Below, in pieces: positions 3,125-36,776 of a stretch of 64,000 nt of DNA. Position 1 is the first letter of the stretch. Each line of letters begins with the position of its first letter. Under the pieces are notes generated by a model. It ran no database searches, was not told where the DNA came from, and saw only the letters and a program-made list of their open reading frames with translations. Source of the DNA: Metabacillus endolithicus (GTDB lineage: Bacteria; Bacillota; Bacilli; Bacillales; Bacillaceae); contig NZ_CP095550.1 of the NCBI RefSeq assembly GCF_023078335.1, forward strand, positions 1,240,001 through 1,304,000, given 5' to 3'. A program made the translations under genes and the position numbers.

Positions 3125-3402
3125 AGAACAACAAAAAAGCAATGGGCGCATAAGATCCCATTGCTAATTAAACGAAAAGTATTTATTCGCTTATACAATG
3201 AGATAGCTCTCCAAGAACATAGTGTTTCTTGACAATTTTACACCTCTTAAATGTAAAACCAGCGATAAAAGTAATGGAGCTTTTATCACTTCGGCAATCA
3301 TTCCTTTCACTGGTTGTCATTGGAATCCACTTTCCTCAAACCAGTTACTCTTAATGACCGCACCTCTACCATCATTTACAAACTAACGATCAATATCAAA
3401 TT
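3125..3402 (-). promoter_or_regulatory. Lysine riboswitch (L-box) of lysC
   Basis: Read on the minus strand, the leader contains the conserved L-box blocks in order: GGTAGAGGTGCG (around 3360-3371), AAGAGTAA, GAGGAAAG, GAAAGGAATGATTGCCGAAG and GCTGGT. A closing segment near 3200 and an intrinsic terminator follow. The family binds lysine and then allows the terminator to form, lowering lysC expression. The aptamer spans roughly 3195-3373. Confidence 0.93.
3133..3165 (-). terminator. Riboswitch-controlled terminator of the lysC leader
   Basis: Perfect nine-base arms (AGCAATGGG at 3138-3146 and its complement at 3157-3165) followed by TTTTTTG on the minus strand. It lies between the L-box aptamer and the lysC start. 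Confidence 0.88.
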
Positions 3403-21947: not shown

Positions 21948-22269
21948 AAAACTCGCCCCATAAAAGGGACGAGTTGAATTCGCGTTACCACCCTTGTTAA
22001 TCATACTAAAAAAATACTTAGTACAACTCACTTCATTTCCATAACGGTAAAAACCGGAACACCTTTACGTTTTTAGAGGTCGGATGTTGGAGAGAGGTCG
22101 GATAAACCATTACTTCCAAAACCGATTCCATACGGTCCTAGTGTCAACTCGAGAGATGAATTCATTTACTTCAATCTAAAAAATGCTTTCAGTCAAGGCA
22201 TTTTCTCCCTGGGTAGACGAACTGTAAAGTACTAGTCTCTGTCATCGTTTTTTAAGCTTATGTAATTTC
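21948..22269 (-). promoter_or_regulatory. T-box leader of pheST (phenylalanine, UUC specifier)
   Basis: On the minus strand, Stem I begins GATGACAGAGACTAGTAC and includes the AGGGAGA-type loop. The specifier loop GAATTCATC offers the Phe codon UUC (22158-22160). The T-box bulge GGGTGGTAACGCG lies at 21981-21993, just before the terminator. Uncharged tRNA-Phe binding would favour the antiterminator and raise pheST expression. Confidence 0.93.
21950..21975 (-). terminator. T-box terminator of pheST leader
   Basis: Arms AACTCGCCCC and GGGACGAGTT (with G-U), six-base loop, followed by TTTTTTATTTT on the minus strand. Confidence 0.88.
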
Positions 22270-27904: not shown

Positions 27905-28052
27905 TCAGGAAAAATAAAAAAGCGTGGACGCAAAACACCCACACTACGATTGTTATCATCTATCATCGCAACCTGCCAACTACAAACGGATGTGTCAATC
28001 AGGTGAGAAGCGGGTGCTTCTACTTGTATATATAAAAGACTATTCAATTACC
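27905..28052 (-). promoter_or_regulatory. Ribosomal protein L20 leader of infC-rpmI-rplT
   Basis: The minus-strand leader contains AGAAGCACCCGCTTCTCACCTG, ACACATCCGTTTGTAGTTGG and a terminator hairpin (plus-strand 27921-27945, AGCGTGGACGC/ACACCCACACT) followed by TTTTTTATTTTT. Order and sequence fit the known Bacillus L20 leader, where excess L20 promotes premature termination. Confidence 0.88.
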
Positions 28053-35097: not shown

Positions 35098-35478
35098 TTA
35101 AAGAGCTTTTGCTTGAGCTTGCTTTACTTGTACCGGTCCCATACCTCTAGGGATCTCAATGTTTTCACGAGTTTGTGCTCCTAAAGATTCTGCAATATGA
35201 TCTGCAGCAATGTTAGGATTTAAATCACCGCAAGTGTAAACATCGATACTAGCATAACCATGCTCTGGAAAGCTGTGAATTGTCAAATGTGATTCAGAGA
35301 TAATAACCACACCACTTACTCCTTGAGGAGCAAATTTGTGAAAAGCAACCTCTCTAATTTCCGCGCCTGATTTTAATGCTGCATTTACAAATGTTTTTTC
35401 AATGTAATCCATGTCATTTAACTTATCAAAATCGCAACCCCATAGTTCAGAGATTACGTGTCTACCCATTGTTTCCAT
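35098..35478 (-). CDS. speD: S-adenosylmethionine decarboxylase proenzyme
   Basis: Makes decarboxylated SAM, the aminopropyl donor for spermidine. It is translated as a 126-residue proenzyme that cleaves itself between E62 and S63 in [14 protein letters not shown] to create the pyruvoyl cofactor. H68 and C83 are the usual processing and catalytic residues. Start [14 protein letters not shown] at ATG 35478. An ATG two codons earlier sits only about four bases from the GGGGG ribosome site. Same length as B. subtilis. The 5' leader appears highly structured (35488-35620). Confidence 0.96.
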
Positions 35479-35487
35479 ATTCATGGA

Positions 35488-35620
35488 TCCCCCTTTAACT
35501 ATTTTTTATACATGAATTCTTCGCTTAATGGTATGTGTAACTACCACGGGGGAAAGTTAGTCCAGAGAGGTCCTAACCCTTTAAGTAGCCATAACACCTT
35601 GGCTTTGATAAGAAGTTCAC
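35488..35620 (-). ncRNA. Candidate structured regulatory leader of speD
   Basis: Folding the minus-strand transcript by eye gives a closed junction. P1 pairs 35610-35620 with 35512-35521 (ten pairs, one bulged C). P2 pairs AGCCA (35600-35604) with UGGCU (35587-35591). P3 pairs AGGGUUAG (35573-35580) with CUAACUUU (35553-35560), with two G-U. P4 pairs GUGGUA (35542-35547) with UACCAU (35528-35533). Loops P2 and P4 contain GUGU and ACAC, which can kiss. The strand between P3 and P4 reads UCCCCC and is complementary to the speD Shine-Dalgarno GGGGGA (35488-35493). I do not recognise a known family. The fold is inference. Confidence 0.5.
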
Positions 35621-35627
35621 GAAAAAT

Positions 35628-35656
35628 AGTATACTTTGTTTGTATTTGTTTTGCAA
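35628..35656 (-). promoter_or_regulatory. SigA promoter of speD
   Basis: TTGCAA (35651-35656), 17-base spacer, TATACT (35628-35633) on the minus strand. Transcription from about 35621 would give a leader of roughly 140 bases, starting exactly at the outer helix of the candidate RNA. Confidence 0.75.
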
Positions 35657-35752
35657 CACACTTTTGAAAAAAATTAGTTAAAGGGTTAATCAAATATTCG
35701 GTCACACATTTATTACTTTAACCGCCGGGAACTTTATTATCCAAAATATTTT

Positions 35753-36776
35753 TTATACCTCTAATAAATGAGTCATACTATTTGCTACTAATTTTGTTAA
35801 ATCGGCAACACGGCATGAATAACCCCATTCATTATCATACCAAGCTAAAACTTTTATTTTTTGATTTTCCATTACCATTGTTGATAAACCGTCAATGATA
35901 GCTGAATGTGGATTTGTATTGTAGTCAATTGATACTAACGGCTCAGTCGTGAAGTCTAGAATCCCTTTTAAAAAAGCCCCTTGAAGCAAATTGGAAAGCT
36001 CGATTAACTTCCTCTACAGTAACAGGCTTTTCTACATCAACTACAAGGTCAACTAATGAAACATTTGGTGTTGGGACTCGTAAAGCCATACCATGTAACT
36101 TGCCTTTCATGTTTGGGAGAACAAGCTCTAGTGCCTTTGCTGCACCAGTTGTTGTCGGGATAATGGATTGCGCACAAGCTCTAGCCCTTCTCAAATCCTT
36201 ATGCGGGTTGTCAATGTTTTTCTGGTCATTTGTATAAGCATGTACGGTTGTCATTAAACCATTTTTTATATAGAAAGATTCATCTATCACCTTAATGACC
36301 GGAGCAAGACAATTTGTTGTACACGACGCATTCGAAATAATTTTATGTTGATTAGCATCAAACTGATTTTCGTTAACTCCCATCACAATCGTAATATCTT
36401 CATTTTTACCAGGTGCAGTTAAGATCACCTTCTTTGCTCCCGCTTTAACATGGAGCATTGCCTTTTCCCTGCTATTAAACTTCCCTGTTGCCTCAATAAC
36501 AATATCAATCCCTAAAACATCCCAAGGAAGCTTCTCAGGGTCACGTTCATTTATTAATAACACCTTTTGACCATTTACAAGTAAATGGTCTTCATAGGCA
36601 ATTACTTCCCCCTGAAATTTCCCGTGAGTTGTATCATATTTTATTAAATGAGCAAGAGTATCAGCTGGATAACTTGCATTGATCGCCACAATATTCATAT
36701 CTTCCATCATTGCATACCTAAAAACCATTCTCCCAATTCGACCAAACCCATTTATTGCAATATTGGCTCTCATCAT
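35753..36776 (-). pseudogene. gapB: Gluconeogenic glyceraldehyde-3-phosphate dehydrogenase GapB (frameshifted, probably a sequencing indel)
   Basis: GapB is the NADP-preferring GAPDH used in gluconeogenesis. The N-terminal NAD(P) fold begins AINGFGRIGRMVFRYAM, and the catalytic Cys lies in SNASCTTNCLAP (about 152). The frame breaks between EVNRAFQ and AFLKGILDFTTEPLVS near 35970-35990, where GGGG and TTTTTT runs lie. The remaining NTNPHSAIIDGLSTMVMENQ and AWYDNEWGYSCR follow in another frame. The 1024 bases are one too many for 340 residues, the B. subtilis GapB length, so a one-base insertion is likely. Start ATG 36776 or 36773, after AGGGG. Two CcpN-type boxes lie upstream. Confidence 0.9.

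Follow-up and report, generated by a model that had tools for sequence, protein, structure and literature searches.

What kind of RNA precedes speD in Metabacillus endolithicus, and how might it control the gene? The window (the whole stretch of 64,000 nucleotides that was analysed) carries speD on the minus strand at 35484-35098, between a gapB-like gene and nrdR. The encoded protein is the Bacillus-type S-adenosylmethionine decarboxylase and scored 134.3 bits against TIGR03330 (cut-off 75.65), which confirms the gene that a sequence-only reading of this DNA had placed downstream of a riboswitch-like leader. A second in-frame ATG of speD, at 35478, agrees with the start ATGGAAAC common to the relatives. 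The promoter proposed at 35656-35628 was also confirmed: TTGCAA-17-TATACT as a bare pattern is at chance level (2 sites found, 1.8 expected), and its support comes from the family alignment, in which the -35, the -10 and the bases as far as the outer helix P1 are almost unchanged. Judged from the position of this promoter, the leader begins near 35621 and is about 140 nucleotides long. The coordinates given in that reading are right, and the working unit also takes in the Shine-Dalgarno (SD) sequence. The features are as follows.

35628 to 35656, minus strand: speD promoter TTGCAA-17-TATACT, from the pattern and the family alignment
35621-35610 with 35521-35511, minus strand: P1, outer helix, with C35615 unpaired
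35598-35594 (GGUGU) with 35534-35530 (AUACC), minus strand: P2a, putative family-level extension of P2, pairs checked in the window
35590-35584 with 35545-35539, minus strand: P2, covarying closing helix, from the comparative analysis
35577 to 35586, minus strand: 5′ core strand ACUUAAAGGG, near-invariant, its first three bases in P2 and its last G in P3
35577-35573 (GUUAG) with 35560-35556 (CUAAC), minus strand: P3 hairpin, with inner CC/GG pairs 35570-35569 with 35563-35562
35548 to 35553, minus strand: anti-SD strand UCCCCC inside the core, complement of GGGGGA
35488 to 35493, minus strand: speD SD sequence GGGGGA, partner of UCCCCC
35098 to 35484, minus strand: speD, S-adenosylmethionine decarboxylase (TIGR03330)

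Upstream of speD, the gapB-like gene of the window (36776-35753, minus strand) is broken. Its frame stops early at 35943, after a frame shift near 35975, within a run rich in A and T, and the remainder of the protein lies in another frame. The gene is intact in four relatives (L003-L006), and the break in the window is a mutation or an assembly error.

The comparative analysis revealed a near-invariant core, ACUUAAAGGGUUAGGACCUC-NN-GGACUAACUUUCCCCCGUGGU, almost unchanged across dozens of families, whose internal loop is made of the strands UUAAAGG and UUUCCCCCGUG. This core is closed by P2, which in the window pairs GGCUACU (35590-35584) with GGUAGUU (35545-35539) and elsewhere takes the forms UAC/GUA, UGC/GCA, UUAC/GUAA, CAC/GUG, UUCAC/GUGAA, CGUCAC/GUGACG and CACGCC/GGCGUG. 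In the model-fitted alignment of 98 sequences, 92.9% of the P2 and P3 cells were paired, against 17.4-58.7% with a slid partner, and the covariation score was 0.321 against at most 0.133 when slid. All five modelled P2 pairs changed on both sides among these sequences. A core-anchored test of P2 that used no fitted alignment gave a score of 5.07 for the true partners over 223 leaders and at most 4.13 in 300 shuffles. Furthermore, parsimony on a FastTree tree of the 98 SpeD proteins counted 57 double compensatory changes in P2, versus 10-16 with slid partners. Covariation in relatives, which the sequence-only reading had proposed to look for, is strong in P2, a helix other than those of that reading's fold. 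A counterpart of the extension P2a, GGCA/UGCC, was seen by eye in L034. The hairpin P3 was paired in 98.2% of cells and changed on both sides in three of its seven pairs; it is remade as GUGGG/CUCAC in L303-L305, and L310-L317 have GUUGGGGC/GCCCGAC or a comparable helix in its place. In the short form of the element in L251, P3 is a plain hairpin. Because P3 is rebuilt in divergent loci, and its loop is 52 nucleotides longer in L296, the loop itself is not essential. Throughout, the joining strands stay fixed while P2 varies freely, and this combination of a covarying helix with fixed joining strands is aptamer-like. From these alignments, the conserved unit is best described as a single extended hairpin with imperfect pairing, and the SD-matching CCCCC lies in its internal-loop core.

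This architecture differs in part from the first proposal, an outer helix closing three hairpins, two of them joined by complementary GUGU and ACAC loops. The outer helix is present exactly where it had been placed, and within the family 99.3% of the cells were paired for five of its pairs. Outside the family, the arm-swap test gives P1 weak and not general support: the native arms did better than the median of their swaps in 120 of 198 comparisons and in 23 of 34, with some cores set too long. The central hairpin also lies exactly at its proposed position, and the two side hairpins are only partly kept in the family, where the first was paired in 63.0% of cells and the second in 75.9% (71.0% jointly; up to 52.6% slid), with a covariation score of 0.124 against at most 0.066 slid and with both-side changes in three of the five pairs of the first. 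The GUGU and ACAC motifs exist in the window and are not retained in the relatives of the family alignment. As a conserved structure, the closed junction with kissing loops was thus not upheld, the alignment favouring P2 (P1, P2 and P3 together paired in 98.1% of cells, versus 71.0% for the side hairpins). RNAfold of 35621-35512 returned the earlier hand fold as the minimum-energy structure, at -28.1 versus -21.6 kcal/mol for the comparative fold in the window, a preference of 6.5 kcal/mol under an energy model that is blind to pseudoknots and tertiary contacts. The folding energy of the leader is ordinary (z of -0.73 and -0.86). On these data we regard P2 as the conserved fold; the side hairpins may at most form an alternative state among close relatives.

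The conservation in relatives that the sequence-only reading had set as a check proved to be very wide. A DNA search found the leader region in 79 of 80 family genomes. Model R1, built from 27 family sequences with the SD sequence left out, matched 320 of 397 genomes of the window's order (108 of 136 genera), with a single match per genome among the matches listed; the genome from which the window comes holds a single copy. Within the class, the core model R2 (69 sequences) matched 190 of 398 genomes, in 87 of 146 genera. The broader model R3 (98 sequences) was run on 61 genomes from a second class in the phylum, the class of G804; it matched 11, and in 10 of these the divergent copy precedes SpeD. 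In two phylum-wide samples, R2 matched 17 of 398 genomes (8 in the window's class, one divergent copy, L251, and 8 by chance) and R3 matched 4 of 249, every one in the window's class; beyond these, the two samples yielded no other convincing match. Named carriers are Sinobaca qinghaiensis and Alicyclobacillaceae bacterium I2511, and genome G036, which we take to be B. subtilis 168, also carries the element. An exact-pattern contig scan, run with five N where four are usual, matched just two records with a longer loop. In a plasmid collection the one match was a 258 kb plasmid of Anoxybacillus amylolyticus (L320), on which the gene order is mutM, coaE, gapB, leader, speD, cytosolic protein, nrdR. 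A viral collection and phage records gave zero matches with blastn and with exact patterns, the first of which had the wrong spacing. The leader is genuine, and its spread goes well beyond what the window alone could show.

The link to speD is equally constant. Of 217 loci fetched as model matches (L101-L240 and L243-L319, some genomes twice), 206 are directly followed by speD in the same orientation, the kind of constant association with the genes of one pathway that marks riboswitches. The other 11 (L252-L259, L308, L309 and L319) have weak E values of 0.001 to 0.023 and no downstream speD and were dropped as chance matches; genuine copies may score weakly too, down to an R1 E value of 0.0025 (L210). 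Four SpeD proteins from divergent loci each scored above the TIGR03330 cut-off. Conversely, 20 listed of the 34 SpeD-less genomes of the order were all absent, by eye, from the RNA-positive matches listed. Twelve genomes of the order with SpeD were scored RNA-negative by R1, among which L322 does carry the RNA according to R3. At L321, a probable decayed copy lies about 60-90 nucleotides before speD, with the 3′ half including CUUCCCCUGUGGUACC left and the SD sequence GGGGG retained. Together, these observations make the speD leader almost certainly a conserved, structured cis-regulatory RNA.

Membership in a described family had been named as the outcome that would speak against a new RNA. 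The Rfam 15 covariance models gave zero matches on the leader at the gathering score, and none on the leader itself with E up to 5, a setting at which one short spurious nuoG match appeared upstream of the leader and two matches inside speD. Likewise, the cores of 10 divergent loci and their surroundings gave no match with E up to 0.1, and the SAM-I covariance model matched neither the leader of the window (E up to 5) nor these loci (E up to 0.1). By these searches, the leader is a riboswitch-like RNA of a class absent from Rfam, which means that a widespread and highly conserved leader RNA can still escape that collection. Elsewhere in the window, all on the minus strand, Rfam recognised a lysine riboswitch (3196-3376), a T-box (21962-22254) and an L20 leader (27910-28031).

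How the RNA might act is indicated by the strand within its core. The complementarity of UCCCCC (35553-35548) to the speD SD sequence GGGGGA (35493-35488), pointed out in the sequence-only reading, was confirmed in the window and is kept in 222 of 223 distinct leaders, a set that leaves out L036, which carries the RNA and escaped the core finder. A GGGGG lies within 30 nucleotides before the aligned start in 222 of the 223, and 18 to 3 nucleotides before an in-frame start in 219. The CCCCC strand is likewise found in 222, a count that is partly by construction because the core finder demanded CCC[C/T]C, and with which the fitted alignments agree. The exception, L207, has CCCUC with GGUGG and shows no compensation. 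In 200 of the 222 leaders the pairing could extend to a sixth pair (169 U-A and 31 U-G). For comparison, with any candidate start allowed, GGGGG precedes 6 of the 51 remaining genes of the window and, in the loci of the relatives, 16 to 23 of 416 genes other than speD. By eye it was also seen in 4 of 11 RNA-less speD genes (L321, the possible decayed copy, L323, L324 and L328), so that this SD sequence accompanies the RNA, although not strictly. Since both strands are nearly invariant, covariation is unable to prove that they pair. The distance between them ranges from 34 to 94 nucleotides, with a median of 53. The duplex alone is worth -11.0 kcal/mol, and when the SD sequence was included in the fold (35621-35479), the minimum-energy structure paired UCCCCC with GGGGGA and lost P1. 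The P1-closing strand of the divergent orders (GGUCCUAG or GAUCCUAG) has an alternative partner, with which it can form a hairpin ending directly before AAGGGGG. Between the core and speD, an extra hairpin, whose loop is alike in the two classes, takes the forms CUAGC-UUGAGAGG-GCUAG and GCAUGC-UUGAGAAG-GCAUG (L310-L318; Bacilli loci such as L179, L184 and L203) and is possibly another conserved element.

The leader very probably acts on translation through the SD sequence. Transcription attenuation was considered and dropped: in 35420-35820 there is no terminator-like site between the core and speD, the sole such site lying inside speD (1 found, 0.3 expected). As P2 encloses CCCCC and the SD sequence lies outside it, pairing of the two strands would form a pseudoknot, a device that small translational riboswitches use. 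For the ligand, the pseudoknot and the switching direction, we infer the following scheme. In the folded aptamer, CCCCC and the SD sequence would form a pseudoknot onto which the A-rich strand packs; a pathway metabolite would stabilise this state and turn speD translation off. When the ligand is scarce, the pre-SD hairpin of the divergent orders would take the 3′ strand of P1, breaking P1 and leaving the ribosome site free. The OFF direction follows from this competition between P1 with its aptamer and a structure that leaves the SD sequence open. It is likely, we predict, that the RNA binds a small molecule directly; a common small ligand is favoured because the core is common to SpeD proteins that are just about 40% identical. 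Spermidine suggests itself because the RNA was found before no gene other than speD, which encodes the committed step; this identification, or that of a close polyamine, is predicted from the gene association and falls a little short of an even chance. Among single compounds, spermidine, the end product, would come first, followed by decarboxylated SAM, SAM or MTA. On balance, and with moderate confidence, we favour a new riboswitch-like class in which an SD pseudoknot shuts off speD translation and which probably senses spermidine or another metabolite of the pathway. What thus survives of the sequence-only reading is a riboswitch-like cis-regulatory RNA before speD, with its conservation, covarying P2 and SD complement; the four-way kissing-loop junction does not.

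Other readings of the same elements were weighed. The leader might be a translational operator whose protein partner, on binding the core, closes or exposes the ribosome site; the partner could be SpeD itself, a ribosomal protein or an RNA-binding protein devoted to the task. Protein operators of comparable size occur among translational leaders, and the window holds an L20 leader. In B. subtilis, a 79-nucleotide Hfq pull-down peak lies on the domain, according to a table row of PMC3574147. Against such an operator, the core hardly changes among loci whose SpeD proteins range from about 40 to 100% identity, unlike what co-evolution with SpeD would give. Conservation is, moreover, strongest in the joining strands, as is typical of ligand pockets, and we regard a protein operator as unlikely. 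Reversal of the switch, with a ligand such as the substrate SAM or putrescine keeping CCCCC inside the aptamer and freeing the SD sequence, appears more doubtful still: some computed folds do pair GGG with CCC within the core (L050, L037), which would free the SD sequence, but committed steps are usually under end-product feedback and in the divergent orders the pre-SD hairpin competes with P1 in the OFF sense.

The RNA could also dispense with a specific ligand, the SD structure responding to temperature, magnesium or polyamines generally. The SD pair is stable on its own, at the duplex energy given above, and polyamines bind RNA generally (PMC10853860, in the accessible part of its text). 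A plain SD trap would, however, have no need for a near-invariant core of about 40 nucleotides with fixed joining strands and a free P2, which makes this explanation improbable to a high degree. Lowest of all we rate an arrest peptide encoded across the core, which we consider hardly credible. A frame CUA CUU AAA GGG UUA GGA CCU CUN NGG ACU AAC UUU CCC CCG UGG UAG is open in many members, but a coding role fails on length: modulo 3, the stretch between GGG and CCCCC falls into all three classes (200, 15 and 8 of 223). Third codon positions are, besides, no more variable than the first two, and the family and wider alignments revealed no common start; a conserved frame with a start signal, as a leader peptide would have, was thus not found. 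We therefore retain the ligand-binding OFF switch as the preferred reading.

The speD leader of B. subtilis has been noticed before. A row in the Hfq co-immunoprecipitation table of PMC3574147 reads 'Unknown or speD leader region', 79 nt, and the paper, in its accessible part, cites Rasmussen 2009 and Irnov 2010, so that a speD leader had already been suggested; Rasmussen 2009 makes no mention of speD in its main text, and Irnov 2010 may hold an earlier mention. Mapped onto G036 (L052, genome coordinates 2966841-2966919), on the assumption that this genome is B. subtilis 168, the published peak coincides with the P2-core-P2′ domain. The row thus shares our locus, and structure, conservation and SD pairing are absent from it. 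The accessible portions of four surveys and reviews (PMC2864571, PMC8632094, PMC11109978 and PMC7266159) hold nothing on speD, and in the open-access literature, the subscription literature being mostly uncovered, we found no paper on the speD leader RNA beyond that table row.

Among the closest known RNAs are SAM-II, SAM-V and preQ1-II, small translation-controlling riboswitches in which a loop strand pairs with the SD sequence across the closing helix. The speD leader resembles them in having a strand that can pair with the SD sequence across its closing helix, as a predicted pseudoknot, and differs from them in its core and its genes and in lacking an Rfam match to them. The odc1 motif, as described in the accessible text of PMC8632094, is an RNA leader of ornithine decarboxylase genes that incorporates a uORF. 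Both RNAs are leader elements of a polyamine decarboxylase gene; the uORF belongs to odc1, and the two were compared in sequence through the Rfam scan (PMC8632094). The published spermidine riboswitch is a rare SAM-I variant before polyamine genes including speD, in the accessible part of its description (PMC10853860). With that RNA our leader shares the position before speD and, presumably, the OFF logic and spermidine as ligand; unlike its SAM-I-like aptamer, the speD leader has no match to Rfam or SAM-I, another core and another SD arrangement (PMC10853860).

The speD leader could accordingly represent a second, architecturally independent class of spermidine riboswitch, an SD-pseudoknot aptamer giving end-product feedback on S-adenosylmethionine decarboxylase, a proposal to which we give somewhat less than an even chance. 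With the same reserve, this RNA would span much of the sampled class and would also occur in the second class of the phylum. If spermidine or decarboxylated SAM is bound, the RNA would explain how the committed step of spermidine synthesis is controlled in these bacteria and would add one more natural aptamer for a polyamine or a SAM derivative, few of which are established. In eukaryotes, S-adenosylmethionine decarboxylase is under polyamine-responsive translation control, and a second spermidine riboswitch would be the RNA counterpart of that control.
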